Assembly: GCF_009707865.1 (NCBI RefSeq)
Contig: NZ_WMBA01000006.1
Coordinates: forward strand, 1-64,000
Direction: 5' to 3'
DNA: 64,000 nt
Origin: Amycolatopsis pithecellobii
Lineage (GTDB): Bacteria > Actinomycetota > Actinomycetes > Mycobacteriales > Pseudonocardiaceae
In this document: positions 29,791 through 43,412 of the stretch, piece by piece
How the letters are laid out: each line of letters begins with the position of its first letter
Position numbering within the stretch: the first letter of the stretch is position 1
Notes under the pieces: model-generated
Told to the model about the DNA's origin: nothing
Database searches by the model: none
The model's input: the letters and a program-made list of their open reading frames with translations, nothing else
Position numbers and translations under genes: made by a program

Positions 29791-30903
29791 TCAGGCGGCG
29801 TGCAGCAGTACTCCGCGGATGTTCTTACCGTCGCGCAGATCCTGGTAGCCCTCGTTGACCTCGTCCAGCGTGTAGCGGCGGGTGACCAGTTCGTCGAGCT
29901 TGATCGCACCGGCTTCGTACAGCCGCAGCAGGCGGACGATGTCGTACTGCGGGTTGGCCGAGCCGAACAGCGTGCCCTTGATCGTCTTCTCGAACAGGGT
30001 CAGCACTCCACCGGACACGTGCACGGTGAGTTTCTCCGGGTTGGCCAGGCCGGTGATGACGACCGTGCCGCCCTTGCCGATCGCGTTGAACGCCGCGCTG
30101 ACGATGTCCTCGTCGACCGTGCCGACCGTGATCAGCGCCTGGTCGGCCAGCTGGCCCCGGGTCAGCTCAACGAGCTTGGCGAACGCTTCGTCGGCGCTGG
30201 CGAACGCATGGGTCGCGCCCAGTTTCAACGCGGTCTCGCGCTTGAGCTCCACCGGATCGACCACCACGATGTTCAGCGCACCGGCATGCGCGGCACCCTG
30301 GACCGCGTTGATGCCGATCCCGCCGATGCCGTAGATCACGACCGTGTCGCCCGCGCGGACCCCGCCCGCGTAGTTGGCCGTTCCCCAGCCCGTCGGCACG
30401 CCACAGCCGACCAGCACCGCGGTCTCCAGGGGCAGCCAGTCGTCGACCTTGACGACCGAGTACTGGGAAATGGTGGCGCGCTCGGCGAACGTGCCGAGCA
30501 TGCACATCGCGCCGTAGTCGGTGCCGCCGCGGTGGAACCGGAAGCTGCCGTCCGGCAGGTTCCCCTGCAGGATGGTGGCGCCCATGTCACACAGGTTCGA
30601 CCGGCCGGTCGCGCAGTAGCGGCACGTCCCGCAGTTGGGGATGAAGCTGCACACCACGTGGTCACCGGGCTTGACCTTGGTGACGCCGGGGCCGACCTCC
30701 TCGATGATTCCGGCGCCCTCGTGGCCGCCGATGATGGGGAACCGCGGCACGAGATCGTTGTCGATCAGGTGCAGGTCCGAGTGGCAGAGCCCGGCGGCGG
30801 TGTACTTGATCATCACCTCGCCGTCGCGCGGGCCGTCGAGTTCGAGCTCCTCGATCTCGAACGGCTTATGTGCATCGTGCAAAACAGCGGCTTTGGTCTT
30901 CAC
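29791..30903 (-). CDS. NDMA-dependent, mycofactocin-linked alcohol dehydrogenase
   Basis: A 370-residue zinc alcohol dehydrogenase of the group with tightly bound nicotinamide, which is re-oxidised by mycofactocin (or NDMA in assays) rather than by exchange. Zinc ligands are in AGLCHSDLHLID, GGHEGAGIIEE and CGTCRYCATGRSNLC; the Rossmann motif is VVIYGIGGIGINAVQGA. Start GTG 30903. It lies 38 bp downstream of mftE in the same direction, fitting its role as electron donor to the cofactor made by this locus. The natural alcohol is unknown. Confidence 0.92.
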   Translation of the reverse strand: MKTKAAVLHDAHKPFEIEELELDGPRDGEVMIKYTAAGLCHSDLHLIDNDLVPRFPIIGGHEGAGIIEEVGPGVTKVKPGDHVVCSFIPNCGTCRYCATGRSNLCDMGATILQGNLPDGSFRFHRGGTDYGAMCMLGTFAERATISQYSVVKVDDWLPLETAVLVGCGVPTGWGTANYAGGVRAGDTVVIYGIGGIGINAVQGAAHAGALNIVVVDPVELKRETALKLGATHAFASADEAFAKLVELTRGQLADQALITVGTVDEDIVSAAFNAIGKGGTVVITGLANPEKLTVHVSGGVLTLFEKTIKGTLFGSANPQYDIVRLLRLYEAGAIKLDELVTRRYTLDEVNEGYQDLRDGKNIRGVLLHAA

Positions 30904-30941
30904 GACGCGTTCACCCCTTTGTGAGGTCGCAGTAAGGACCG

Positions 30942-31610
30942 TTACAGCATGACATCCGAAGCAAGCGCGGCGACAGAGTCAAGTAGACTTTTCGCCCACC
31001 GGGTGAGGATGGCTTCGCCCGCCTCGGCGGTCGCGCCGCGTGGGTCGCCGAGCACCCCGTTGGGGCTGACCGCGCGAATTCCGCCCTCCCGCAAGGAATC
31101 GATCAACACCGGCATGGGCGTGGCGTTCCCCGGCTCCAGCCGGTCGAGCCGCACGGCGTCCGGCCGCAGCGCGAGCATCACCGACGTCTCGGTGTGCCCG
31201 GCGTGGCTGTCGTCGCTTCGCCCGCTCGGCAACCAGGCCCGTACTTTCCTTCCCTCGTAACGAAGTTTCGCGACCGCGCGGCGCAGCGGCTCGACGTTGC
31301 CCCCGTGCGCGCAGACCAGGAGCACTCCGGCGAAGGCGTCCGCCGAACGCACCAGCTCGACCAGAACCGTTTCGGTCGCTTCCTGGCCGATCGACAGCGT
31401 GCCGGGGAAACCGGCGTGCTCGCCGCTGGACCCGTACGGCAGTGCGGGCGCCACCACAACGTCTTCCCGTTTCCTCGCCACGGTTTCACACAACGCGACG
31501 GCGATCTCGGTGTCCACAGTGTACGGAAGATGTGGACCGTGCTGCTCGGTGGCGCCGAGGGGAACCACGAGCAGCCGCGGTGTCAGTTCGGTCCACGTAC
31601 GGTCTTTCAT
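30942..31610 (-). CDS. mftE: MftE creatininase-family peptidase
   Basis: A 222-residue creatininase-fold metallopeptidase that cleaves the MftC-modified C-terminal Val-Tyr dipeptide-derived moiety from MftA. Metal motifs are visible: PLGATEQHGPHLPYTVDTEI, a CAHGGNVEPL segment and HAGHTETSVML. The ATG at 31610 overlaps the mftF stop (ATGA), so the longer upstream reading is rejected. Confidence 0.93.
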   Translation of the reverse strand: MKDRTWTELTPRLLVVPLGATEQHGPHLPYTVDTEIAVALCETVARKREDVVVAPALPYGSSGEHAGFPGTLSIGQEATETVLVELVRSADAFAGVLLVCAHGGNVEPLRRAVAKLRYEGRKVRAWLPSGRSDDSHAGHTETSVMLALRPDAVRLDRLEPGNATPMPVLIDSLREGGIRAVSPNGVLGDPRGATAEAGEAILTRWAKSLLDSVAALASDVML

Positions 31611-32905
31611 TTCCTGGGCCAGTTTGTGAAATCCGGGATGAGCGGCGTGACCGTGCGTTCTTTCCAGCAGCCGTACCAAACTCCGGCGCCATAGCTGAGA
31701 TCGTCAGCCGTTCTCGCCAGCACCCAGCGGACGGGATCGAGGCCCGGTCGGGTTTCCGCCCACTCCTTGAGGTGACGCGAGAAGGCGAACGCGAGGACCG
31801 TCCGACCCCGGGCGGCGAGCACCGGCACGGCCACCGGTCCCCAGGTCCGGGTGAGTGCCTCGGCGAAGTACCGGCCCGCACCGAGGTGACCACGCAGGGC
31901 GATGAGCAGCGATTCCCGCACCGGGACGCCCAACGGCGCGAGCTTGCGTGGCAGGAGGGCGGCCGTGCCGAAGGCGACGGCCGCCCCGAGGCCGGGGCGG
32001 CGCGCGGCGATGAGACCCCACGCGAGCGCCGTCCACCCGGAAACCCGCACGGGAGCGATGGCTTTGTGGCCGTGCCTCTTCGCGAGCGGCGCCGCGGAGG
32101 TGCCGTAGTCGAACCGCTGCTTCGCCCACGCACGCCAGGTTTTCCGCGGGGTGTGCAACACTTCGGACTTCGGCTCGTAACGCACGCGACCGTCCAGCCG
32201 CCAGACGAAATCGACGTCCTCCCCGAAACGCAGCCGCTCGTCGAAACCGCCGGCTGCCTTCGCCGCCGCCGTGCGCACGACGAGTGCGGCCGTCGGGAGG
32301 TAGGTCACCCGGCGCCCCGGCCCGACCGGTGCCGGAGCCGCGCCGAGGTCCAAAGCGGACCGTTGCCGCTCGTACTTCTCGAGCGCGGAACTTCCTGGCG
32401 TGCTGCGAATTCTCGGGGCGACGGCGACGACAGCCGGGTCCTCGAAATGCGGCAGGATCGCGTCGAGCCAGCCGGGCCGCGGTTCGGTGTCGGCATCGAG
32501 GAACGCGGTGAGTTCCGTCGTGACGTACGCGAGTCCCGTGTTACGCGCGGCGGCCGGGCCGCGTGCCACCGGATGTCGTTGGGTCGCAACGGGAATCGGC
32601 GCCTGGGACCCGTCGTCGATCACCACGTCGGCAGCCGGCAACGTCGCGGGGTCGCGCGCGGGCACGACGATCGTCACGTCCGCGCGCGTGAGGCCGGCCT
32701 TGCGGTGCTCGGGATGGGCGATACCCGCATCGACGAGCCGGTCGGCGAGTTTCCGTTGCTGGGGCAGGTCCGACACCTCTGCGCCGTCGCGCCACTGCCG
32801 GACCAGGAGCGCCCCGGCCTTCGACAACCGCAGAACCCGCAGTGGCGCACCGCCGATCAGCACCTGACCGAGGATGCGTGTACCCGGATCGATGCGGAGC
32901 TTCAC
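31607..32905 (-). CDS. mftF: MftF glycosyltransferase
   Basis: A 432-residue GT2-family enzyme which in mycobacteria adds beta-1,4-linked glucose units to premycofactocin. The fold shows DVTIVVPARD, VVIDDGSQAP, RNTGLAYVTTELTAFLDADT (DxD) and LRFGEDVDFVWRL. C-terminal hydrophobic helices suggest membrane attachment. Start GTG 32905. Coupled to mftE by ATGA and 13 bp after etfB. It also contains a copy of the 13-bp GTCCA palindrome. Confidence 0.93.
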   Translation of the reverse strand: MKLRIDPGTRILGQVLIGGAPLRVLRLSKAGALLVRQWRDGAEVSDLPQQRKLADRLVDAGIAHPEHRKAGLTRADVTIVVPARDPATLPAADVVIDDGSQAPIPVATQRHPVARGPAAARNTGLAYVTTELTAFLDADTEPRPGWLDAILPHFEDPAVVAVAPRIRSTPGSSALEKYERQRSALDLGAAPAPVGPGRRVTYLPTAALVVRTAAAKAAGGFDERLRFGEDVDFVWRLDGRVRYEPKSEVLHTPRKTWRAWAKQRFDYGTSAAPLAKRHGHKAIAPVRVSGWTALAWGLIAARRPGLGAAVAFGTAALLPRKLAPLGVPVRESLLIALRGHLGAGRYFAEALTRTWGPVAVPVLAARGRTVLAFAFSRHLKEWAETRPGLDPVRWVLARTADDLSYGAGVWYGCWKERTVTPLIPDFTNWPRK

Positions 32906-32918
32906 GCGCGGAACCCGT

Positions 32919-33746
32919 TCACGGCGCGTACCCGTGCCGGCGCAGGTAGTCCAGCAGCTCCCGCGCCGCTTCTTCGGCTGTCGCCGGATGCAGGACCTGG
33001 GGCGGGGTCCGCTCGACGAGCGCGCCGGTGAGTGCGAGCATCCGTTGGTGTGGCTCGTTTCCGGTGGGCGCGGGCAGCGCGCGCGGCCGGGGCCGGTAGG
33101 CAGTCACCGCGCCCGCCCGCAGGTACCGCAACGAGCCGGCCTGCGCGACCGGGATTTCCGCCGTGCGGGCCGCGATGGTGGCGGGCAGCGACGCACGCCG
33201 CAACACCGTGCCCGCCGCCTCGACCGAGCACACCGCCGGCGCGCCGAACATCAGTCTTTCCCGTCTCCCGCCGTCGAGTCGGCGCACCGCGTGCAGCGCA
33301 CCGTCGATCGCTTGGAGTTCGATGAGGCCGAGTGCTTGGCACGCACCGAGCCGCTGCGCCAGGAATGCCGGTGTGGCACCGGTTCCGCGGTCGGTCGAGT
33401 GGTCCCCGCAGACGATGACATCCGGTCGTTCCGGCAGGCCGTCCAGCAGCAGCCGTGCGGTTTCGCTGCCGTCCTCGGTGACGGGCTCGGCCGGACCGTC
33501 GATGCGAAGCACTTCGTCCGCACCCACAGAAAGCGCTTCCCGAAGCATCTCCCCGGCCTCGACGGGTCCGACCGTCACGGCCATGCAGCGCCCGCCGAAC
33601 GCTTCGGCGATGCGCAGCGCGTGTTCCAGGGCGGCCTGGTCGGCGGCGTTCGCCCCGCTGGTGCGCGCGTCCGTGCGCACCAGCCCGGTGAGCGGATCGA
33701 CGGCGGCACGCTGATCACTGAACCGCAGGGCGGCCACGATCAACAT
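32919..33746 (-). CDS. etfB: ETF beta-like subunit, mycofactocin-associated
   Basis: A 275-residue electron-transfer flavoprotein beta (FixA-like) subunit. Features are AADQAALEHALRIAEAFGG, GADEVLRID and DVIVCGDHSTDRGTGATPAFLAQRLG, the AMP/FAD-binding side of ETF. It lies between fixX and mftF and belongs to a set (etfA, fixC, fixX, etfB) known near mycofactocin operons in some actinobacteria. It would pair with EtfA and accept electrons from the flavoprotein partners. Confidence 0.88.
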   Translation of the reverse strand: MLIVAALRFSDQRAAVDPLTGLVRTDARTSGANAADQAALEHALRIAEAFGGRCMAVTVGPVEAGEMLREALSVGADEVLRIDGPAEPVTEDGSETARLLLDGLPERPDVIVCGDHSTDRGTGATPAFLAQRLGACQALGLIELQAIDGALHAVRRLDGGRRERLMFGAPAVCSVEAAGTVLRRASLPATIAARTAEIPVAQAGSLRYLRAGAVTAYRPRPRALPAPTGNEPHQRMLALTGALVERTPPQVLHPATAEEAARELLDYLRRHGYAP

Positions 33747-33749
33747 CGG

Positions 33750-34049
33750 CTATCCCTTCCGGAACACGACGCCGTGGCCCCCGTCCGGGTAGCTCCAGCT
33801 GATCGCGCCCTCACCGTTACAGACCTGGTAACAGGTGCCGCATTCGAAGCACTGCTCGTAGTTGAACAGGATGCCGCCGTCACTGGTCGGCACGAACAGA
33901 TCCGCCGGGCAGGCGTGCACACACGCCTTCGTGGTGCACGAACGGCAGACGTCGGCGTCCACGGTGATGTGCGCGCGCTGCGCGACACGAAACTCCACTG
34001 TGGACATGACATCGTCGAAGGCCGGTTCCTGATAGCGCTTTCCGGTCAT
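33750..34049 (-). CDS. fixX: FixX-like ferredoxin
   Basis: A 99-residue ferredoxin with two cluster motifs: CRSCTTKACVHACP (C-x2-C-x4-C-x3-C) and CFECGTCYQVCN. The first spacing is unusual for standard 2[4Fe-4S] ferredoxins but typical of FixX and the ETF-ubiquinone oxidoreductase C-domain. It overlaps fixC by four bases, consistent with the two forming one electron-bifurcating or quinone-reducing unit. Internal ATG at residue 15 is an alternative start. Confidence 0.9.
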   Translation of the reverse strand: MTGKRYQEPAFDDVMSTVEFRVAQRAHITVDADVCRSCTTKACVHACPADLFVPTSDGGILFNYEQCFECGTCYQVCNGEGAISWSYPDGGHGVVFRKG

Positions 34050-35404
34050 CGCAGTCCTCGCATCCCGGTCCAGCCGTCGCGCAGCAGCTCACGCCAGCGT
34101 ACTCCGTTTTCCTTCATCGATCTCCGCAACAGCTTGCGCAGACCGGGTTTCGGCGCCGGATTGTCCACCTGGAACATTCCCTGCACGAGATCGCACACCA
34201 GCGCCGGGTACTGTTGCTGCGTCCGGTCCGACAGCACCAGACCAGGGAACTTCCGCAGTTTCCGGTGATCGGCCAGCACGAACGACTTCTCCAGCATCGT
34301 CCGGTAGCCGGCGAGGCCGCGCCGGGACACGTCACCGGAGGCCACCGCCGCCGCGGCCGCACGCCCGGCGTACATCCCGGCGCCGATCGCGAAGTTCACG
34401 CCCTCCAGCCAGATCCCGGCCGCGAGGCACATCGCCGCCGCGTCCCCGGCGACCAGCATCCCGTCGCCGATCAGCTCGGGCATCGCGTCGTAGCCGCCTT
34501 CGGGGATCAGGTGCGCGGAGTATTCGATCTGCTCGCCGCCCCTGATCAGCGGCGCGATGGCGGGATGCCGTTTGAGCTCGGCGACGAGTTCCTCCGGCCT
34601 GGTCTTCGCCTTGCTGACGCCGGTGAGCGCGAGTACGACGCCGATGCTCACCGAATCCAGGTTGGTGTAAAGGAAACCGCCGCCCGGAATGCCCCTGGTG
34701 CAGCCGAGCATCTCGATGTCCACCCCGTCGCGGCCGGTGATCGCGAACCGCTCCTCGATGACGTGCCTCGGCAGCGCCAGGGTTTGCTTGACGCCCAGCG
34801 TCAGGTGCTCGGCTTGATGCTCGGTCTGGTACAGGCCGGCTTCTTTGGCCAGGAAGGAGTTCACCCCGTCGCACGCGATCACCACACTTGCCGTGAGATC
34901 CCCGTCGGGCCGGTCGGTGCGCACCCCGACGATGGTTCCGGTGCGATCCTGCAGCAGGTTCGTGACCACAGTGGACGGAATGAGGACCGCACCCGCCGCG
35001 ACAGCTTGCTCGGCGAGCCAGGAGTCGAGGTCGGCCCGGTACGCGGTGGCGCCGTTGTACGGGGCACGGCCCCAGTCCTGCGTGCGGAAATCCACGGTGA
35101 GCGCCTGGGTCGGGGTCATCACCATCGTCGAGCGGCGGGTGACCCAGCGCTGCACCGGCATGTGCTCCCACCAGTCAGGCACGAGCTCGTCCAGGATGCG
35201 GCCGTAAACCACGCCACCGTAGACATTTTTCGCGCCCGGGAACGGTCCGCGTTCGATCAGCGCGACAGAACGCCCCGCTCGCGCGGCTTCGAGCGCGGCC
35301 GCCGAGCCGGCCGGCCCGGCACCGACCACGATGATGTCGAAGGTCTTTGCCGGCTCATCGAAGACAACACCCGCCGACGTACTGGCGGGGCCCGCGTAGG
35401 TCAT
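34046..35404 (-). CDS. fixC: FixC-like FAD oxidoreductase (ETF-QO type)
   Basis: A 452-residue flavoprotein: FDIIVVGAGPAGSAAALEAA nucleotide-binding fold, IACDGVNSFLAKEAGL, and GGYDAMPELIGDGMLVAGDAA FAD segment. It lacks the C-terminal iron-sulfur domain of mitochondrial ETF-QO, which FixX next door supplies. In the Fix system FixC/X pass electrons from ETF to quinone or ferredoxin. ATGA overlaps on both sides make the electron module stoichiometric. Confidence 0.92.
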   Translation of the reverse strand: MTYAGPASTSAGVVFDEPAKTFDIIVVGAGPAGSAAALEAARAGRSVALIERGPFPGAKNVYGGVVYGRILDELVPDWWEHMPVQRWVTRRSTMVMTPTQALTVDFRTQDWGRAPYNGATAYRADLDSWLAEQAVAAGAVLIPSTVVTNLLQDRTGTIVGVRTDRPDGDLTASVVIACDGVNSFLAKEAGLYQTEHQAEHLTLGVKQTLALPRHVIEERFAITGRDGVDIEMLGCTRGIPGGGFLYTNLDSVSIGVVLALTGVSKAKTRPEELVAELKRHPAIAPLIRGGEQIEYSAHLIPEGGYDAMPELIGDGMLVAGDAAAMCLAAGIWLEGVNFAIGAGMYAGRAAAAAVASGDVSRRGLAGYRTMLEKSFVLADHRKLRKFPGLVLSDRTQQQYPALVCDLVQGMFQVDNPAPKPGLRKLLRRSMKENGVRWRELLRDGWTGMRGLR

Positions 35405-36402
35405 CGCACCTCCAGCATCCGGGCCAGCTCGGCGAGCACGGCAGGCGCGTCGGCGACGATGCCCAGGTCGGCCATTGCCGTCATCGGGCAGGACTCGTCG
35501 AGGTTGACGCTGACGACCTGCGCCGGGTCACCGAGCCCGCCGACGTGTTGCGCCGCACCGGAAACACCGAACGCGACGTACAGCTCGGGATGGACCACGA
35601 CGCCGGTGGTGCCGATCTGCCGCTGGTAGCCCGTCCAGCCCGCGTCGGTCACCACCCTCGTCGCGCCGAGTGCGGCCCCCATGGCGTTCCCCACCTTTTC
35701 CAGTAATGCCACGGATTCCGGGTTGCCGAGCCCGGCTCCGGCGCCGAAAATCCTCGGTGCTTCGGCCAGATCGACCGTGCCGGGTTCGGGGTCGAGCACC
35801 TCGATCACGGTCACGTCCGGCGCTTCGGCGTGGGGCAGCTCGATCGCGTACAGCACGGTTTCAGACGCGGGCGCACTTCCGCGCACGCCGGGCTGCAACG
35901 TCGCCACGAACGGCCCGTCCGCGATGAGGTCGGCGCACACCCGGTCGCCCCAGCGAGCGACTTCCGCGCCGTGGGCGGTCACCCGGATCGCGCCCGCCAG
36001 CAGCGGCCTGCCAAGTTCCGCGGCCAGCCGTGGCGCCAGATCCCGGCCGTCGGCCGATGCGGGCAGCAAAATCCGTTCCGCGTTACCAATCCGACCGAAA
36101 GTAGGCGGATACGCATCCGCAGCCGACCTGTTCGTACAAACCGTTTCCGCCGTGGCTGTAGTCGGATTGGTAACGAACGGCGGCACAGTAAGGGTCTTCG
36201 CCAGCTGGCGGGCCCAACGGCCCGGTGCGAACGTGCCGTTCTCGGCGAGGGCGCCGGTGCACAGCGAGGGCAACTCGGCCGCTGCCTCCTTCACGCCGGT
36301 GCCGACGAGCAGCGCCGCGCCCCCCGCCTCGGCAACGGTTTCGTCCGCGCCGAGCGGCAGTACGCCGTCACGGACGACGATCACCGCGAGCAGGTCGTTC
36401 AC
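35401..36402 (-). CDS. etfA: ETF alpha-like subunit with in-frame inserted element
   Basis: A 333-residue ETF alpha (FixB-like) subunit. The C-terminal FAD domain is clear (IFGAGAGLGNPESVALLEKV, TDAGWTGYQRQIGTTGVVV, VSGAAQHVGGLGD, VSVNLDESCPMTAMADLGI). Residues about 77-107 are encoded by an 89-bp inverted-repeat element and read through without a stop; they separate WARQLAKTL from ERILLPASADGRD in the N-domain. Whether the subunit still folds is the open question. ATGA overlaps with fixC and the downstream-numbered OYE gene. Confidence 0.88.
   Translation of the reverse strand: MNDLLAVIVVRDGVLPLGADETVAEAGGAALLVGTGVKEAAAELPSLCTGALAENGTFAPGRWARQLAKTLTVPPFVTNPTTATAETVCTNRSAADAYPPTFGRIGNAERILLPASADGRDLAPRLAAELGRPLLAGAIRVTAHGAEVARWGDRVCADLIADGPFVATLQPGVRGSAPASETVLYAIELPHAEAPDVTVIEVLDPEPGTVDLAEAPRIFGAGAGLGNPESVALLEKVGNAMGAALGATRVVTDAGWTGYQRQIGTTGVVVHPELYVAFGVSGAAQHVGGLGDPAQVVSVNLDESCPMTAMADLGIVADAPAVLAELARMLEVR
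36084..36172. repeat. 89-bp palindromic element inside etfA
   Basis: Perfect 13-bp-class terminal repeats TACCAATCCGAC and GTCGGATTGGTA (15 bp with flanking CGT/ACG) bound an 89-bp unit with an internal stem GCGGAT-ACGC-ATCCGC. It matches 38401-38489 in length and ends, and the half copy at 17502. It lies wholly within coding sequence. Confidence 0.85.
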
Positions 36403-38369
36403 AGTGCCACCCCCACCCGGTGGCCCTCGATGACGGCGGCGTGCGCGCGGCGCGGGGTCACGCAGTCACCGGCGCGGTGCACCGGGAACGGCGCGTCCTT
36501 CAGCTCTTGCCACAGCTGGTCTTCCGGTTGCTGGTGCGTCGCACACACCACCCAGTCACAGCCGAGCTCGCGGGTCACGCCGGTGGTGTGGGTCAGTACC
36601 CGCAACACGATCCGTCCGTCCACTTCGGACGCGGCGAGGATCACTTCGTCGGTGTGCTGCCGGATGCCCTTGGCGTGCGCACGGACGTTGAACGTCTCCA
36701 TGTCGAGCGTCACGCCGAGATCCTGGCCGACCACCATGCCGGAGGTGCTGATCCGCACCGAACAACCACGGTCGGCGAGCAGCTCAGCGGTCGAGGTCGC
36801 CTGGTGGAAACCGAGATCGTCGAGGACGACGACCTCGCCCTCCGGTGCCGCGCGACCTTCCAGTACGTCCCGCACGTCCACGACACGGGCCAGATCGCCT
36901 GCCCAGTAAGGTTTCTGCGGCTTGGCGCCGGTCGCGAGCACGACGGTGTCCGGTGACTCCGAACGCAGCAGTTCGGCCGAAACTTCCGCGCCGGTCTTGA
37001 TGTCGACGCCGTACCGCTGACACTCGGCGAGCAGATTCCTGACCACATCGAGGAATTCCGCGCGGCTCGGGATACTCGCGGCGACCGCGGCCTGGCCGCC
37101 GGTGGTGTCGTTGCGCTCGAACAGCGTCACGTGGTGGCCGCGCTGCGCGGCCGTGGAGGCGGCCTGTAGCCCGGCCGGGCCACCGCCCACGACGAAGACG
37201 CGTTTCGGCCGCGGTCCCGGCGGCGACAACGGCACTAGCAGCGGCACGCTTTCCTTGCCGGTGCGCGGGTTTTCGATGCAACCCAGCCACCGGTTCAGCC
37301 CCATCCGGCCGACGCATTCCTGGTTGCAGGACAGGCAGGTCCGGATCTCCGTCGAGTGTCCGGCACGGGCCTTGGCGGCGAAGTCGGCGTCCGCGATCTG
37401 GCCACGGACGACGCCGACCAGATCGCAATGTCCTTCGGCCAGCGCACGTTCGGCCTGCACCGGGTCCTTGATCCGGCCGACGCCGATCACCGGGAGCCGT
37501 ACCGCTTCGCGAATGGCGTTGGCGATGAACAACGCGTAGCCCGGAGGGATCGCCATCGACGCCTCGATCATGTACAGCGTCGAGGTGGCCACGCCGATCG
37601 AAGTGTTGATGTAGTCGACTTTTCCCGTCGCCTCAACGAGTTTCGCGACCTCGACCGCTTCGTCGATCGTGGTGCCGCCTTCGATCAGCTCGTCACCGCA
37701 CAACCGCACGCCCAGCGCGCGGTCTCCTCCGATGGCCTCGCGAACGGCGTCGATGATCTCCAGCAGAATGCGCGCCCGGTTGGGCAGCGAGCCACCGTAG
37801 GAGTCGGTGCGCTTGTTCGTGGCGGGGGAAAGGAAACCGCGGACGATCGACGAATGCGAACACTGGAGCTCGACCCCATCGAACCCGCCTTCGGCGCAGT
37901 GCCCGGCGACCGTGCCGTAGCCCGCGACCACTTCGGCGATCTCGCGATGGTCGATCGCTTTGGGCACCTCGCGGAACATCGGGTCGGGCACCGGCGACGG
38001 CGCCCACACCGGCAGCCGTGAGTACATTGAGGACGTTTGACCACCGTTGTGGTTGAGCTGCGCGAAAATCGGGGTGTCGTGCGCATGCACGGCTTCGGTG
38101 ATGCGACGGTAGCCGGGGATCACCTCACGGTGAAAACCGTGGATGAGCTTCTCGTACGGCCAGTCCGTCTCATGCGTCGAGTGCTCCTCGGTGATGATCA
38201 GCCCCGCGCCGCCGGCCGCGCGCGCCGCGTAGTACTCGGCATGTTGCTCGCTGGGCAACCCGTTCTGCGCGTAGTTCGTCAGATGCGCGGAGAACACGAT
38301 CCGGTTGCGCACCACGACCGGCCCGACCCGCAGCGGCGAGAACAGGTACCGGTAACGTCCGCCACTCAT
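36399..38369 (-). CDS. FadH/OYE-family oxidoreductase, mycofactocin-associated
   Basis: A 656-residue protein related to 2,4-dienoyl-CoA reductase. The N-terminal FMN barrel has NRIVFSAHLTNYA, FAQLNHNGGQ, DGVELQCSHSSI and FLSPATNKRTDSYGGSLPNR. The [4Fe-4S] ligands are Cys345, 348, 352 and 364 (C-x2-C-x3-C-x11-C). A C-terminal FAD/NAD module starts VFVVGGGPAGLQAAST. Members of this group occur near mycofactocin genes; function is not established. It ends overlapping etfA by four bases, so it is coupled to the ETF module. Confidence 0.92.
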   Translation of the reverse strand: MSGGRYRYLFSPLRVGPVVVRNRIVFSAHLTNYAQNGLPSEQHAEYYAARAAGGAGLIITEEHSTHETDWPYEKLIHGFHREVIPGYRRITEAVHAHDTPIFAQLNHNGGQTSSMYSRLPVWAPSPVPDPMFREVPKAIDHREIAEVVAGYGTVAGHCAEGGFDGVELQCSHSSIVRGFLSPATNKRTDSYGGSLPNRARILLEIIDAVREAIGGDRALGVRLCGDELIEGGTTIDEAVEVAKLVEATGKVDYINTSIGVATSTLYMIEASMAIPPGYALFIANAIREAVRLPVIGVGRIKDPVQAERALAEGHCDLVGVVRGQIADADFAAKARAGHSTEIRTCLSCNQECVGRMGLNRWLGCIENPRTGKESVPLLVPLSPPGPRPKRVFVVGGGPAGLQAASTAAQRGHHVTLFERNDTTGGQAAVAASIPSRAEFLDVVRNLLAECQRYGVDIKTGAEVSAELLRSESPDTVVLATGAKPQKPYWAGDLARVVDVRDVLEGRAAPEGEVVVLDDLGFHQATSTAELLADRGCSVRISTSGMVVGQDLGVTLDMETFNVRAHAKGIRQHTDEVILAASEVDGRIVLRVLTHTTGVTRELGCDWVVCATHQQPEDQLWQELKDAPFPVHRAGDCVTPRRAHAAVIEGHRVGVAL

Positions 38370-38400
38370 ACCAGTTCCCTTTCCCGCACTGCATTGTCGG

Positions 38401-38489
38401 TACCAATCCGACCGGCAGTCACGGCGATCCGCCTGGCGTAGGTCGGCTTCCGGCTGATCACGGTCGGCCTACTTTGGGTCGGATTGGTA
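38401..38489. repeat. 89-bp palindromic element at an operon junction
   Basis: Terminal repeats TACCAATCCGACC and GGTCGGATTGGTA bound an 89-bp unit, same length as the etfA copy, in opposite orientation. It occupies the only wide gap in the mft operon and supplies the last ten or so codons and the stop of the upstream OYE gene. Confidence 0.85.
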
Positions 38490-40353
38490 GTAGCTTCATC
38501 GCCGCGCGGCGGCCTTCCAGTATCGCCTCGTGCACCGTCCGCGGCGCGACGCAGTCACCGGCGCGAAGCGTTCCCGGCAGCTCGTCCGGCAACCGGTGTC
38601 CACAGTGGACCACTGCGGCGCAGTCGAGCTCGCGGCGCTCGGCGGTGAAGACGTCCTCGATGACGACCTGCCCGGCACGCACCTCGCGCAGCACCGATCG
38701 CTTGGCGAGCGTGACCCCGGCCTGCTGCAGGCGCGTGTTGGCGTCGGCGAGGTCACCGGTCAGCGCGAGCTGCGTGCCGATCACCTGGTCCTGGCTCACG
38801 ATCGTGGTCACCTTCCCTTGCGCCGCCAAGAGTTCGGCCACTCCGACGCCGACGAAGTCACCCACCGGATCGGCCACCACGATCGGCCCTTCCGGTAACC
38901 GCGCCCCGGCCAGCAGGTCCACCACGTCGACCACCTCGCCACCGAACACGGCGTAGTTTCTCGGCCCCGCAACGGATCCTGTCGCGACGATGGCGCCCCT
39001 GGGCACGTCGGTCACGTGCACGCCGGTCCGCACCCGTACGCCCAGCCGGTGAATTTCGCTTTCCAGCCAGTCGGCGAGCTTCGCCAGCCGGGCCCGGCCG
39101 TCGACGTTCGCCGCCAGTCGCAGCATGCCGCCGAGCCGATCGGTCCGCTCGCGCAGTTCCACGCGGTGGCCGCGCAGCGCGAGCACCCGCGCGGCTTCCA
39201 TCCCGGCCGGACCGCCCCCGATCACCACCACATCGCGTGGAGTGTCGTGGCCGTCGATCGACGGGTCCTCGGTTTCGTGGCCGCTGCGGGGTTCGCTGAT
39301 GCAGCTGACAATCGGGTTGCGGTTGTCCCGCACGCGGCATCGCTGGTTCGACAGCACGCACGGCCGTGGGGTCGCGCCCGCGCGCACCTTCACGACGAGT
39401 TCGGGGTCGGCGATCTGCGCGCGTGTCATCTCGACCACGGTCGCCACGCCTTCGTCGAGCGCCTGCTGCGCCTGTGCGGGGTCGACCACGCTGCCCTGCA
39501 ACACGGTCAGCGTGCGACCTTCGACAGCCCCGGTGATCCGGCGGCACAGGTCGAGGTTGAAGCCCGGCTCGGTGTGCAGATCTGGCCGGGTCGCCGAGGC
39601 GCTCATCGCCGAGCCGCGCACCGGCACGAGGTAGTCCACGCTCGCCGCGACATCGGCGGCGAGCACCGCCGCCTGCTCGGGGGTGAGCCCCGCCCACGGC
39701 GCCAGCTCGTCGCAAGACAGGCGCAGGCCGATGATCCGGTCGCCGATCGCCTCCCGCACCGCGGCCAGCACTTCCCTGAGTAGCAGGAACTTTTCCGCAC
39801 CATAGGAATCGGCCCGCTGGTTCGTCAGCGCCGAGATGAACTGCCGCAACAACGAGTACTGTCCGGCGTCCAGCTCGACACCGTCCATTCCGGACTCCAC
39901 CGCCAGCGCCGCCGAAGCACGGAAACCGTCGACGAGCATGCGGATCTGGTCGTCTTCCAGCTCCATCGGCAGCTCACGGCTCGCGACGTCGGGAACCCGG
40001 GACGGCGCCCACAACGCCGACTGCGAGAACGCCGAAGACCCCTGTGACCCGGTGTGTCCCAGCCCGGCGAGCACGAGCGTGCCGTGTGGACGACAAGCGT
40101 CCACTGTGGACGTCCAACCAGGACCGCACAACGCGGCCAGTGGTGCCCGCTCGTACGGCCAGTCGGAGTCGTGCACGCTGGCCGTCTCGGTCACGATCAT
40201 CCCGGCACCGCCGGCGGCACGGGCGGCGTAATAGGCGACATGGCGGTCGGACAACACGCGCCCGCGCGCGAGGTTCGTCTCGTGCGGTCCGAAAAGGACC
40301 CGGCTCGGCGCGGTCCGGTCCGCGATCTTCACCGGGTCCGGCAGCGTGTTCAT
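38458..40353 (-). CDS. Second FadH/OYE-like oxidoreductase, atypical cluster
   Basis: A 631-residue paralogue of the next gene. The C-terminal FAD/NAD module is intact (VVVIGGGPAGMEAARVL). The N-domain is divergent: the OYE His-rich catalytic block is replaced by LDAGQYSLLRQFISALTNQR, and the cluster motif is C332-x2-S335-x3-C339-x11-C351, with Ser at the second ligand. It may carry an altered or no [4Fe-4S] cluster. Start ATG 40353 overlaps mftC (ATGA). The C-terminus LLPIRPKVGRP is encoded by the inserted 89-bp element. Confidence 0.88.
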   Translation of the reverse strand: MNTLPDPVKIADRTAPSRVLFGPHETNLARGRVLSDRHVAYYAARAAGGAGMIVTETASVHDSDWPYERAPLAALCGPGWTSTVDACRPHGTLVLAGLGHTGSQGSSAFSQSALWAPSRVPDVASRELPMELEDDQIRMLVDGFRASAALAVESGMDGVELDAGQYSLLRQFISALTNQRADSYGAEKFLLLREVLAAVREAIGDRIIGLRLSCDELAPWAGLTPEQAAVLAADVAASVDYLVPVRGSAMSASATRPDLHTEPGFNLDLCRRITGAVEGRTLTVLQGSVVDPAQAQQALDEGVATVVEMTRAQIADPELVVKVRAGATPRPCVLSNQRCRVRDNRNPIVSCISEPRSGHETEDPSIDGHDTPRDVVVIGGGPAGMEAARVLALRGHRVELRERTDRLGGMLRLAANVDGRARLAKLADWLESEIHRLGVRVRTGVHVTDVPRGAIVATGSVAGPRNYAVFGGEVVDVVDLLAGARLPEGPIVVADPVGDFVGVGVAELLAAQGKVTTIVSQDQVIGTQLALTGDLADANTRLQQAGVTLAKRSVLREVRAGQVVIEDVFTAERRELDCAAVVHCGHRLPDELPGTLRAGDCVAPRTVHEAILEGRRAAMKLLPIRPKVGRP

Positions 40354-41522
40354 CGCAACCCGGCGAGTGGACTCGTGTCGCACGCGCGGTCCGGGCGCGA
40401 CGGCGGGCCGAAGCCGATGCTCACCGGGACCTTGCGGCTCTTGCGATGTGAATGGTCCACATCGGACCGTGGCGCCGCGCCGACCGTTGCCAGCGCGCGG
40501 GCCCCGTTGCCCTTGACGCACTCGGGGTCGGGACCGTCGAGCGGCAGTCCGGTGAAGAACTTCGCCGCCATGCACCCGCCCTGACATGCGTCGTAGGCGG
40601 AGCACGACGTGCACGCGCCACCGGTCTGCGGTCCGCGCAGGCGAGTGAACAGTTCCGAATCCGCCCACACCTTGGCGAATCCGCCCTCGTCGCGGACGTT
40701 GCCGGCCAAGAACTCCTGATGGATCGCGAACGGGCAGGCGTACACGTCGCCCACCGGGTCGATCAGGCAGACGACCCGGCCGGCACCGCACAGATTCAAG
40801 CCTGGCAACGGATCCGAGCCGAGCGCATTGAGGTGGAAGAAGGAGTCGCCGGTGAGCACCTTCTCCCCGCGCGCGACGAGCCAGTCATACAGTTCCAGCT
40901 GCTGTTCCGCCGTCGGGTGCAGCTCGTCCCACACGTCGGCGCCGCGACCGGATGGCCGCAACCTGGTGATGCGCAGCTGGGCGCCGTAGGTGTCGGCGAT
41001 CTGCGCGAACTGGTCGAGCTGACCGATATTCTGCCTGGTCATCACGACGCTCAGCTTGAAATCGCGGAATCCGGCGTCGCGCAGGTTGGTCATCGCGCGG
41101 ATCGCGGTGTCGTAGGAACCCGGCCCGCGTACCGCGTCGTTGACCTCCGCCGTGGCCCCGTCGAGCGAAATCTGCACGTCCACGTAGTCGGTCGCGGCGA
41201 GCCAGCGGGCGCGCTCGGGCGTCAGCTTCACGCCGTTGGTGGAGAACTTGACGCCCACCTGGTGTGCCACCGCATACTCGACCAGTTCCCAGAAATCGGC
41301 GCGCACGGTGGGTTCGCCGCCGCCGATGTTCACGTAGAACACCTGCATGCGCTGCAACTCGTCGATGACCGCCTTGCATTCTTCGGTGCTCAGCTCGCGT
41401 GGATCCCGCCGCCCCGAGGAGGAAAGGCAGTGCACGCACGAAAGATTGCAGGCGTAGGTCAGTTCCCAGGTCAGGCAGATGGGCGAGTTGAGCCCTTCCT
41501 TGAAATGCTCGACGAGCTTCAT
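40350..41522 (-). CDS. mftC: MftC radical SAM peptide maturase
   Basis: A 390-residue radical SAM-SPASM enzyme that decarboxylates the C-terminal Tyr of MftA and forms the Val-Tyr cross-link. The SAM cluster is Cys25-x3-Cys29-x2-Cys32 (YACNLSCVHC). The SPASM region has CGAGRVVCLID, VYACPFAIH and CTSCSAYDACQGGC. The tail contains SDVDHSHRKSRKVPVSIG, usual for MftC. I choose ATG 41522 preceded by GAAAGG; a GTG at 41540 overlaps mftB. Confidence 0.95.
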   Translation of the reverse strand: MKLVEHFKEGLNSPICLTWELTYACNLSCVHCLSSSGRRDPRELSTEECKAVIDELQRMQVFYVNIGGGEPTVRADFWELVEYAVAHQVGVKFSTNGVKLTPERARWLAATDYVDVQISLDGATAEVNDAVRGPGSYDTAIRAMTNLRDAGFRDFKLSVVMTRQNIGQLDQFAQIADTYGAQLRITRLRPSGRGADVWDELHPTAEQQLELYDWLVARGEKVLTGDSFFHLNALGSDPLPGLNLCGAGRVVCLIDPVGDVYACPFAIHQEFLAGNVRDEGGFAKVWADSELFTRLRGPQTGGACTSCSAYDACQGGCMAAKFFTGLPLDGPDPECVKGNGARALATVGAAPRSDVDHSHRKSRKVPVSIGFGPPSRPDRACDTSPLAGLR

Positions 41523-41532
41523 CGCGCGCCTT

Positions 41533-41799
41533 TCAGTCACGTCGTTCGATCGTTCCGGTATTCGCCAAGCCCTCGAGCGCTTTCAGATACGACGGCCGCT
41601 GGTCGTCGGGGACGCCCGCCACGTCGAGAGTGGTGTGCACGTCGGGCTGGGCTTCGAGCGCGCGCACCACCTCGACCAGCAGTTTCGTTTTCAGGAACGA
41701 CAGCCTGCGGGTGCCGAAGTCATACGCGAGCGCGCCGAACGACTCGGGTCGCAGTGCGATGCGCGGCGAGCACCGGTACGGCTGATCTGGCTCGAACAC
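41533..41799 (-). CDS. mftB: MftB peptide chaperone
   Basis: An 88-residue RiPP recognition element-type protein that presents MftA to MftC. It shows the expected YRCSPRIALRPESFGALAYD start, the LSFLKTKLLVEVVRALE helix and an acidic end. Start GTG 41799, 5 bp after the mftA stop; the 3' end lies 10 bp before mftC. Strict order mftA-mftB-mftC and small size support the call. Confidence 0.93.
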   Translation of the reverse strand: MFEPDQPYRCSPRIALRPESFGALAYDFGTRRLSFLKTKLLVEVVRALEAQPDVHTTLDVAGVPDDQRPSYLKALEGLANTGTIERRD

Positions 41800-41804
41800 C
41801 GGTC

Positions 41805-41903
41805 TCAGTAGACGCCGCACATGCCGTCGATGGACACCTCTTCGACGAGCAACTCGTCTTCCACCAGAGCCTCGTCCTGCGCAACCTGCTGAGTCTCGGC
41901 CAT
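41805..41903 (-). CDS. mftA: MftA mycofactocin precursor peptide
   Basis: A 32-residue peptide, acidic in the middle (DEALVEDELLVEEVSI), ending IDGMCGVY. The final Val-Tyr is the residue pair converted to the redox cofactor core, and the IDGMCGVY end is the family hallmark. ATG 41903 follows GAAGGGAG. Upstream lies the divergent mftR gene with a palindromic operator. Confidence 0.96.
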   Translation of the reverse strand: MAETQQVAQDEALVEDELLVEEVSIDGMCGVY

Positions 41904-41958
41904 GGGATGCTCCCTTCGTCGCGGCCGCCCCGGTGCGGCTCGCGTCACACACAATAAT

Positions 41959-41971
41959 GGCACCGAGTGCC
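41959..41971. promoter_or_regulatory. Candidate MftR operator
   Basis: GGCAC-CGA-GTGCC palindrome in the mftA-mftR divergent region, 15 bp before the mftR ATG and about 55 bp upstream of mftA. It is the only clear dyad there. Confidence 0.55.
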
Positions 41972-41985
41972 GAATGGAAGAGGGT

Positions 41986-42576
41986 ATGACCGACCAGGGT
42001 GTTTCGCGCGCCGGCCGCAAGCCGATCACGTCGCGCGCCGAGGTGGAGCACGTGGCGTTCGAACTGTTCGCCCGCCAGGGGTTCGAACGCACCACGGTGG
42101 ACGACATCGCGCAGGCCGCCGGGATCGGGCGCCGCACGTTCTTCCGCTACTTCCCGTCGAAGAACGACATCGCGTGGGGCGATTTCGATGGCGAACTGGC
42201 ACGGATGCGCACGCAGCTGGCCGGTTACCCTCCGGACGTGCCGCTGATCGACGTGATCCGCGAGGCGCTGGTCGAGTTCAACCGGATCGACCCGGACGAG
42301 GCGCCATGGCACCGCCGCCGGATGGAGTTGATCCTGACCACCCCGGCGTTGCAGGCTCACTCGACGCTGCGGTACACCGCGTGGCGGCAGGTGCTCGCGG
42401 ACTTTGTTGCAACACGACTCGATGTCGCGCCGGATTCCCTTGCGCCACAAGCAATCGCGTACGCGACGCTGGGTGTCGCGCTGGCCGCGTACGAGCAGTG
42501 GCTGCGCAGCCCCGGCACTGAGCTGAGTGAGCTGTTGAGCGCGGGAATGCGGGAGCTGAGCGCCGCGATCGGTTGA
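41986..42576 (+). CDS. mftR: MftR TetR-family regulator
   Basis: A 196-residue TetR regulator divergent from mftA. The helix-turn-helix is TTVDDIAQAAGIGRRTFFRYFPSKNDI. In mycobacteria MftR represses the mft operon and responds to long-chain acyl-CoAs. The ATG at 41986 has GGAAGAGG upstream. The stop overlaps the next gene's TTG start (TTGA), coupling a methyltransferase to the regulator. Confidence 0.93.
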   Translation: MTDQGVSRAGRKPITSRAEVEHVAFELFARQGFERTTVDDIAQAAGIGRRTFFRYFPSKNDIAWGDFDGELARMRTQLAGYPPDVPLIDVIREALVEFNRIDPDEAPWHRRRMELILTTPALQAHSTLRYTAWRQVLADFVATRLDVAPDSLAPQAIAYATLGVALAAYEQWLRSPGTELSELLSAGMRELSAAIG

Positions 42577-43412
42577 GCGGGATTGCGTACCATCTCGGTG
42601 TGCTGTTCCCGCGTGGTTCCGAGGCCATCAGCCCGACCGGCCACTACACCGGCTACGTCTGGGTACGCAATGGGCTGGCCCCGCCGGAGCTGGCGACCGC
42701 CGAGGGCCGCGTGATGTTCCACCTACTGGAACCGGCGATGCGGGTCAGCCGCCTGCTGGGCCGGCCGACGATCGAGGGCTTACTCGTCGCCCGGCACCGG
42801 ATGCTGGACGAGCTGCTGGCCGGTGCGGTTGAGCGTGGCGAAATCGGGCAGGTGATCGAGATCGCGGCGGGCCTCTCCGCCCGAGGTTGGCGCTTCACCC
42901 GGCGGTACCAGGATTTGGTCTATGTCGAGGCCGACTTGCCACGCATGGCGGCCCGCAAGCAGCATTTGCTGGACCGGCTCAGCGGCCCGGTCCCGCGGGT
43001 CACGACTGTGGACGCCCTCGCCGCGGACGGACCGTCGAGCCTCGGTGCGGTTGCGGACACTTTGGACCCCGATGTCGGCACCGCGATCATCACCGAGGGT
43101 CTGCTGAACTACTACGACCTCGAGGCGGTTACCACTATGTGGCACCGTTTCGCCGAGGTCCTCCTGCGCTTTCCGACCGGTGCGTACTTCGCGGATATCG
43201 TCATGCTCCCGGCCACCAATTCGCTCGCCCGGCGCTTGGCGGGCGGTTTACTGGAAACCACGCTCCGAGCGTCGGTACATGTACATTTCCCGAACCCCCC
43301 GGAAGCGGCGAAAGCATTACAGGCGGCGGGCTTCCCAGCGGCGGAGCTCCTATCCGCACCCGGCGACGATCCCGGGGCAAAGTTAGTGCGGATCATCGAC
43401 GCCTGGACCTGA
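42573..43412 (+). CDS. Leucine carboxyl methyltransferase-family (LCM) enzyme
   Basis: A 279-residue SAM methyltransferase of the PPM1/LCM/Tcmp fold: GQVIEIAAGLSARGWRF (motif I), YVEADLPRMAARK, TAIITEGLLNYYD and a C-terminal AGF. In bacteria these methylate carboxylates or polyketide acids. The TTG start overlaps the mftR stop, a strong sign of cotranslation. It could modify mycofactocin or its glycosylated form, though mycobacterial MftM is a different locus; that role is inference only. Confidence 0.85.
   Translation: MSGIAYHLGVLFPRGSEAISPTGHYTGYVWVRNGLAPPELATAEGRVMFHLLEPAMRVSRLLGRPTIEGLLVARHRMLDELLAGAVERGEIGQVIEIAAGLSARGWRFTRRYQDLVYVEADLPRMAARKQHLLDRLSGPVPRVTTVDALAADGPSSLGAVADTLDPDVGTAIITEGLLNYYDLEAVTTMWHRFAEVLLRFPTGAYFADIVMLPATNSLARRLAGGLLETTLRASVHVHFPNPPEAAKALQAAGFPAAELLSAPGDDPGAKLVRIIDAWT

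Follow-up and report, generated by a model that had tools for sequence, protein, structure and literature searches.

Organization of the mycofactocin locus

A stretch of 64,000 nucleotides from Amycolatopsis pithecellobii of the family Pseudonocardiaceae (positions 1 to 64,000 of contig NZ_WMBA01000006.1, assembly GCF_009707865.1), hereafter the window, contains an operon of the mycofactocin (mft) type that lacks mftD and has in its place six genes for old yellow enzyme (OYE)-type flavoproteins, an electron transfer flavoprotein (ETF) and its Fix partners. The operon occupies the minus strand from 41903 to 29791 in the order mftA, mftB, mftC, OYE1, OYE2, etfA, fixC, fixX, etfB, mftF, mftE and an NDMA-type alcohol dehydrogenase gene (adh), with mftR divergent. 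The block from OYE1 to etfB, here called the module, is considered below as a possible substitute for MftD.

Every protein of the operon except FixC and FixX exceeds the cut-off of its NCBIfam model; these two are clear homologues that fall below the cut-offs of the nearest models. The 32-residue precursor MftA (41805..41903; TIGR03969, 48.6 bits, cut-off 25) ends in IDGMCGVY, and its core sequence matches the mycofactocin precursor, making mycofactocin the product predicted from sequence. It is followed by the peptide chaperone MftB (41533..41799; TIGR03967, 105.9 bits, cut-off 33) and the radical SAM maturase MftC (40350..41522; TIGR03962, 653.6 bits, cut-off 265), and beyond the module by the glycosyltransferase MftF (31607..32905; TIGR03965, 384 bits, cut-off 280), the peptidase MftE, whose gene has an ATGA overlap with mftF (30942..31610; TIGR03964, 282.5 bits, cut-off 172), and the NDMA-dependent, mycofactocin-using alcohol dehydrogenase (29791..30903; TIGR03989, 559 bits, cut-off 440). 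The genes that together define a mycofactocin cluster (mftA, mftB, mftC, mftE and mftF) are thus all found at the locus. The TetR-family regulator MftR (41986..42576 on the plus strand, start picked by eye; TIGR03968, 280.5 bits, cut-off 224.9) is transcribed divergently from mftA.

Within the module, OYE1 (38458..40353, minus strand like the rest; TIGR03996, 848 bits, cut-off 627.9; PF00724 and Pyr_redox_2 domains) is a flavoprotein of the FMN/FAD/[4Fe-4S] type and the proposed partner subunit of OYE2 (36399..38369; TIGR03997, 1002 bits, cut-off 793), the putative catalytic AHDP dehydrogenase. Next come the mft-type ETF alpha subunit EtfA (35401..36402; NF038209, 419 bits, cut-off 240; PF00766 FAD domain), a FixC-like ETF:quinone oxidoreductase flavoprotein (34046..35404; NF007542, 337 bits, under the cut-off of 610), a FixX-like ferredoxin subunit with Fer4 domains (33750..34049; NF011993 FixX, 53.6 bits, under the cut-off of 166) and the mft-type ETF beta subunit EtfB (32919..33746; TIGR04503, 340 bits, cut-off 200). 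The parts of a FixABCX or ETF:quinone oxidoreductase system (EtfA with its FAD domain, EtfB, FixC and FixX) are complete at the locus. Compared with PDB chains, FixC scores 270 bits against the FixC chain 7koe_C and 75 bits against the ETF-ubiquinone oxidoreductase 2gmh.

The operon is likely read as one transcript, because five of its eleven junctions are 4-bp overlaps (four ATGA and one GTGA) and four more are gaps of only 3-13 bp; the widest junctions are OYE1-OYE2 (88 bp) and mftE-adh (38 bp). A first-pass annotation of this DNA had listed the mft genes, the NDMA-type alcohol dehydrogenase, the two OYE-type proteins, EtfA, FixC, FixX and EtfB, and the family scores bear this inventory out, but it overlooked the absence of mftD; its description of the genes as almost all ATGA-coupled was overstated, since only 4 of the 11 junctions are of that kind. 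It had also extended the mycofactocin locus over 29791-43412, of which the last 840 bp encode an LCM-type methyltransferase (42573-43412; PF04072) whose gene overlaps the end of mftR. Only 6 of 80 related loci have a match to this methyltransferase, which might act on the cofactor or have no connection with it.

In common with the canonical mftRABCDEFG cluster of the Mycobacterium type, seen in locus L040, the window has mftR, mftA, mftB, mftC, mftE, mftF, the IDGMCGVY end and the NDMA-type alcohol dehydrogenase; it differs in that mftD is exchanged in place for OYE1-OYE2-etfA-fixC-fixX-etfB and in that the operon is without mftG. No copy of mftD lies in the operon, and a search of the genome with TIGR03966 returned nothing over the cut-off of 471 bits, the best of six lactate-dehydrogenase-like matches below it scoring 359 bits. 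No mftG was found among the operon genes; three MftG-family GMC oxidoreductases over cut-off are encoded away from the operon on contigs C125, C78 and C73 (451, 431 and 399 bits). In the available portions of two reports, MftD deaminates AHDP to premycofactocin, forming the redox centre, and a Mycobacterium smegmatis mftD deletion mutant piles up AHDP and makes no mycofactocin (PMC7491314; PMC11778925). A cluster without mftD therefore needs another enzyme for the deamination step, unless its product differs.

Distribution of MftD and the module

In a phylum-wide sample of 396 Actinomycetota genomes, 53 encode MftC. Of these, 44 have MftD over cut-off and precisely the remaining nine have OYE2 (TIGR03997) over cut-off, so that OYE2 is present in 9/9 mftD-lacking and 0/44 mftD-bearing genomes (Fisher p 2.3e-10, kinship ignored). 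The EtfA subfamily model of the cluster (mft_etfA) is matched in eight of the nine and again in 0/44. In the ninth genome, G186, a divergent MftC is followed by OYE2, EtfA, FixC, FixX, EtfB and MftF; its ETF subunits have Pfam ETF domains, with the mft_etfA score under the cut-off. The G186 locus (L035) is mycofactocin-like, with a peptide ending in DGICGVY, an MftC of 335 bits and no OYE1, mftB or mftE match nearby. In two other genomes (G091 and G188) the genes are distributed over three separate contigs, carrying etfA-fixC-fixX-etfB-mftE-mftF, mftC-OYE1, and OYE2; the module block is kept even where the genes are scattered. MftG was detected by TIGR03970 in 13 of the 53 MftC genomes and by TIGR04542 in two more, that is, in 1/9 module genomes and 14/44 mftD genomes (p 0.42); by these two of the three MftG models, NF038210 being the third, the module does not track mftG, the gene of the known mycofactocinol dehydrogenase.

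The window's own family shows a looser pattern. Among 390 Pseudonocardiaceae genomes, 201 encode MftC, 160 MftD and 90 OYE2 over cut-off; the MftC genomes divide into 58 with both MftD and OYE2, 102 with MftD only, 32 with OYE2 only and 9 with neither, seven genomes with OYE2 at 754-790 bits being tallied as OYE2-less (among them G476, which carries the mftD-only label in the MftC tree). The 41 mftD-lacking genomes comprise 35 with module genes, one with a broken mftD and five that are unexplained. Four 'neither' genomes were resolved. The module is complete in G534, and mftD is present in fragments in G704; FixC and FixX occur in both G778 and G780, together with an EtfA match in the former and fragments of OYE1 and OYE2 in the latter. 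The mftB-mftC loci of G778 and G780 (L155 and L157), from draft genomes of one genus, are of a variant form in which FixC and FixX are accompanied by OYE or EtfA-like fragments, rearranged or broken. The rule within the family is that at least one of the two systems is present, with overlap rather than exclusion.

The overlap is structured by OYE2 score. The 32 genomes without MftD have OYE2 at 970-1018 bits; among the 58 with MftD, 42 have a divergent OYE2 at 796-954 bits and 16 a high-scoring one at 972-1017 bits. A search for mft_etfA in 80 family genomes (these 42 and 16, 20 of the 32 mftD-lacking genomes, G534 and G704) found it in 0/42 mftD genomes with divergent OYE2, in 16/16 with high-scoring OYE2, in 20/20 mftD-lacking genomes and in G534. 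The genomes thus fall into three architectures, namely mftD by itself, mftD accompanied by a divergent OYE pair but not by ETF, and an OYE pair with ETF/Fix genes, with or without mftD.

A scan of named genomes yielded 356 OYE2 loci, the best 80 of which were inspected in 3.7-22 kb of DNA each, some ended by contig edges. The usual gene order was that of the window; 60 of the loci contain MftC and 71 contain EtfA, the others often being truncated by contig ends, and no MftD match lay within the 3.7-22 kb of any of these 80.

Twelve of 72,556 plasmid sequences carry MftC, four of them with MftD and the other eight with OYE2 on the plasmid itself. Six of the OYE2 plasmids belong to Streptomyces and have an mft_etfA-like match; two are haloarchaeal. 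One of the Streptomyces plasmids (L221, NZ_CP107797.1) is typed as mobilizable, and the module-type cluster may therefore move between strains. A ninth OYE2-like match (37%), on a plasmid of Rhodococcus sp. USK10, is not accompanied by an MftC match on that plasmid. In Haloterrigena turkmenica, OYE2-EtfA-FixC-FixX-EtfB lies beside mftF, mftC, mftB2, mftA and mftE, and in Halolamina OYE2, EtfA, FixC, FixX, an SDR gene and EtfB lie beside mftC, mftB2 and mftA; EtfA and EtfB of both plasmids bear Pfam ETF domains. The H. turkmenica OYE2 scores 625 bits, under the TIGR03997 cut-off. No OYE1 adjoins OYE2 in either plasmid, a second OYE of H. turkmenica being about 9 kb away. Runs of genes annotated as mycofactocin-coupled SDR stand next to the module in both, six in Halolamina (L223, 149-5564) and four in Haloterrigena (L222, 1162-5370). 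That the module and mftD strictly exclude each other holds on the plasmids and in the phylum sample but not in the window's family, and was rejected as a general rule.

Phylogeny and residue conservation

A tree of MftC was computed by a quick method for 161 rows, the partial sequences of L079, L090 and L099 being excluded. The window's closest relative on it is Amycolatopsis sp. GM8 (97% identity in MftC and 93% in OYE2). The module label changes at least 8 times on well-supported branches and 23 times by parsimony, with three module-labelled rows (L107, L109 and L118) showing no EtfA in the DNA examined. Five ETF-less Amycolatopsis loci (L089, L134, L136, L138 and L140) nest among module loci, and their genomes carry mftD. 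Seven supported independent pairs could be drawn, in which MftD is opposite to the module in five or six and changes in the same direction in none (median p 0.06); the test omits two unknown rows, two rows with broken mftD (L154 and L212) and 16 module rows of untyped mftD status.

Residues were compared between module-type rows, meaning any OYE2 row outside the ETF-less set, and 21 of the 42 ETF-less loci, with L035, L155 and L157 excluded. EtfA is in the same locus for 78/88 OYE2 and 72/80 OYE1 module-type rows; in the others the locus ends, the genome is scattered, or a second copy has no visible ETF (L107). The key residues of OYE2 are His172 and the cluster cysteines 345, 348, 352 and 364. 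All four cysteines are kept in 88/88 module-type and 21/21 ETF-less rows. His172 is present in 88/88 module-type rows (78/78 with EtfA in the locus), as well as in H. turkmenica and G186, versus 12/21 ETF-less rows; in the other nine Gln takes its place, and by eye these rows fall in three regions of the tree.

Among the 80 module-type rows of OYE1, 59 have four cluster cysteines, 18 have three, two have two and one is all gaps; an early view that OYE1 had generally lost a cluster cysteine was dropped on these counts. At least two are present in 72/72 loci with EtfA in view, and Ser335 of the window, at one of the four positions, is common to ten rows including the nearest Amycolatopsis. Zero or one cysteine remains in 15/21 ETF-less rows versus 0/79 module-type rows, and all six ETF-less rows with three or four cysteines have lost His172. 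Loss of either His172 or the OYE1 cysteines therefore marks 21/21 ETF-less rows and 0/77 module-type rows that have both proteins. In two mftD genomes without mft_etfA (G740 and G741; L151 and L152), one open reading frame (1492 and 1464 aa, respectively) encodes a fusion of OYE1 with OYE2, a sign that the two may form one shared complex.

Relatives of OYE2 and proposed reaction

OYE2 has the FMN barrel, [4Fe-4S] cysteines and nucleotide-binding domain of an OYE-type ene-reductase, and its closest solved relatives are 2-naphthoyl-CoA reductase (NCR), FadH, 6-HPON amine oxidase, and the histamine and trimethylamine dehydrogenases. The branch of FadH, NCR and BaiCD supplies the closest solved sequences and folds, and BaiCD is the next best NCBIfam model of OYE2. 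OYE2 departs from this branch in that the proton-donor tyrosine (Y197 of NCR) is replaced by Ser174 in all 88 module-type and all 21 ETF-less rows, and in being proposed to run as a dehydrogenase; OYE1 has Ser or Ala at the same position. In the available part of one study this tyrosine is called invariant in OYE members (PMC6502838), and its absence from both OYE1 and OYE2 argues against ene reduction. Trimethylamine and histamine dehydrogenases have the same three-domain build and use an ETF as acceptor, according to the same excerpt (PMC6502838), and genes for ETF partners (mft_etfA and mft_etfB) neighbour OYE2, whose His172 is aligned with a His of histamine dehydrogenase. By analogy with these enzymes an amine-type substrate is proposed for OYE2, which differs from them in having two paralogous subunits and its own FixC/FixX.

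The module OYE1-OYE2-EtfA-FixC-FixX-EtfB is accordingly read, from sequence comparison and with a probability of roughly two in three, as an alternative premycofactocin synthase that would stand in for MftD. At its FMN, OYE2 would oxidize AHDP at the carbon that bears the amine (C3), in the way that its relatives trimethylamine and histamine dehydrogenase oxidize amines, and the resulting imine would hydrolyse to the keto-amide and ammonia. Electrons would leave through the [4Fe-4S] clusters of OYE2 and of its partner subunit OYE1, be taken up by the dedicated ETF and pass through FixC/FixX to the quinone pool. The later steps, in which MftF glycosylates the product and the NDMA-type alcohol dehydrogenase uses it, are assumed to proceed as in the known scheme. 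The broader proposition, that this is a second, non-homologous and ETF-coupled route to the redox centre in bacteria and haloarchaea, run by OYE2 (joined by OYE1 in Actinomycetota), that replacements have occurred repeatedly, and that the OYE pair drifts to a different function after ETF loss, has a somewhat better than even chance of being right.

Several observations weigh against this replacement. In the family census 58/90 OYE2 genomes also carry MftD, 16 of those 58 with mft_etfA, and five of the 201 MftC genomes (G478, G737, G745, G759 and G779, all 78-91% complete) are unexplained, neither system being seen in the loci of G745 and G779. Ten of 50 named module genomes searched in full likewise carry MftD, in two cases inside a second mftABC cluster and in eight without an mft gene within up to 20 kb. 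ETF-less clusters retain OYE1 and OYE2 in MftD-bearing genomes, which suggests that the OYE proteins have or have gained another role. The rows of the pair test were selected by trait, and the test is therefore support rather than proof; without L035, L124 and L130 it falls to six pairs (p 0.125), and with OYE-bearing rows only to two pairs (p 0.5). The OYE1 cysteine loss is confined to one genus (code g266, Pseudonocardia by its member P. bannensis) and may represent a single event. The ETF subunits of H. turkmenica and G186 reach no NCBIfam model at E 1e-40. As for OYE2 itself, the two sequences that it matches best (NCR and FadH) are reductases, Leu30 (88/88 rows) occupies the position of the cysteine that binds FMN covalently in trimethylamine dehydrogenase, and its AlphaFold model, used for the order of Foldseek matches only, is weak (pLDDT 71, pTM 0.53). 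Confidence in the replacement of MftD is moderate because sequence similarity of OYE2 peaks with reductases and the enzyme activities are predicted only.

Alternative explanations

The first-pass annotation had electrons flow from alcohol through mycofactocin to the ETF, so that the block would re-oxidize mycofactocinol and pass electrons via ETF-FixCX to quinone, the job of MftG. The outlet that it tied to mycofactocin is supported. In favour of this reading, an ETF:quinone oxidoreductase is a respiratory outlet and the operon has an NDMA-type alcohol dehydrogenase; no MftG match occurs within the DNA examined of the best 80 of 356 OYE2 loci, and the MftG report, in its available part, does not settle what takes the place of MftG in the quarter of MftC genomes that lack it (PMC11778925). 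The direction of flow is disfavoured, because in the phylum sample the module alternates with mftD (9/9 versus 0/44) and does not track mftG: 30/44 mftD genomes have neither the module nor MftG by the two models applied, the window's genome has the module plus three MftG-family proteins, and the missing MftD step is left unaccounted for. We consider re-oxidation as the function of the block unlikely. A double role, in which the block both makes premycofactocin and re-oxidizes mycofactocinol through one ETF chain for synthesis and use, is slightly less likely still; two OYE paralogues in actinobacterial clusters, the scaffold common to AHDP and mycofactocinol, and the apparently high cost of dedicated ETF and Fix subunits when only small amounts of the cofactor are made are in keeping with it, but the archaeal and G186 versions have only one adjacent OYE.

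The two remaining possibilities are improbable. Another lactate-dehydrogenase-family paralogue might perform the MftD step, the module being incidental, and the six sub-cut-off matches in the window's genome, up to 359 bits, would be candidates; such paralogues are found in mftD genomes too, however, and four of the nine mftD-lacking genomes of the phylum sample (G091, G186, G188 and G252) have no match to the family at E 1e-30. Least probable of all is FixABCX-like electron bifurcation that feeds low-potential electrons to an acceptor such as the radical SAM enzyme MftC. Among the structures compared, the closest match of FixC is the FixC chain of 7koe, EtfA scores alike against several ETFs and EtfB scores best against 4kpu, but these scores do not separate kinds of ETF, and a call of bifurcation from sequence scores was dropped. 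Moreover, MftC occurs without mft_etfA in all 44 mftD-bearing genomes of the phylum sample, and bifurcation would explain neither OYE1 and OYE2 nor the link to the missing mftD. Replacement of MftD by the module remains the preferred reading.

Relation to earlier work and significance

Proteins of the window exceed the cut-offs of the four NCBIfam models TIGR03996, TIGR03997, NF038209 and TIGR04503, whose names ('mycofactocin system' or 'mycofactocin-associated') denote an association and do not assign the MftD step to any of them. Genome G817, which we take to be Saccharopolyspora erythraea NRRL 2338, has MftD adjoining MftC and no OYE2 match, and S. erythraea was set aside as proof that module clusters make mycofactocin. 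Production of mycofactocin by S. erythraea is cited in the relevant section of the BGCFlow study of 2024, which reports 17 mycofactocin-like Saccharopolyspora clusters with mftD missing and TIGR03997 present; in that section neither ETF nor Fix proteins are named, nor is there mention of an alternation or of further taxa that lack mftD (PMC11162802). TIGR03966 had earlier been found in most but not all mycofactocin species, the replacement being unnamed in section 9 of that paper (Haft 2011, PMC3023750). In the literature searched, mostly without subscription papers, mycofactocin was not found together with ETF or 'electron transfer flavoprotein', its pairing with 'old yellow enzyme' returned only work on coumarin degradation, and no report of cross-phylum alternation, an ETF link or the residue losses was found.

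If the module does replace MftD, a step held essential in the synthesis of a redox cofactor would have two unrelated solutions, one of them tied to the respiratory chain. Mycofactocin clusters without mftD would be explained, and cluster finders that demand mftD would need correcting. Four 'mycofactocin-associated' protein families of obscure role would gain a function, and the ETF/FixCX set would have a purpose in cofactor biosynthesis.

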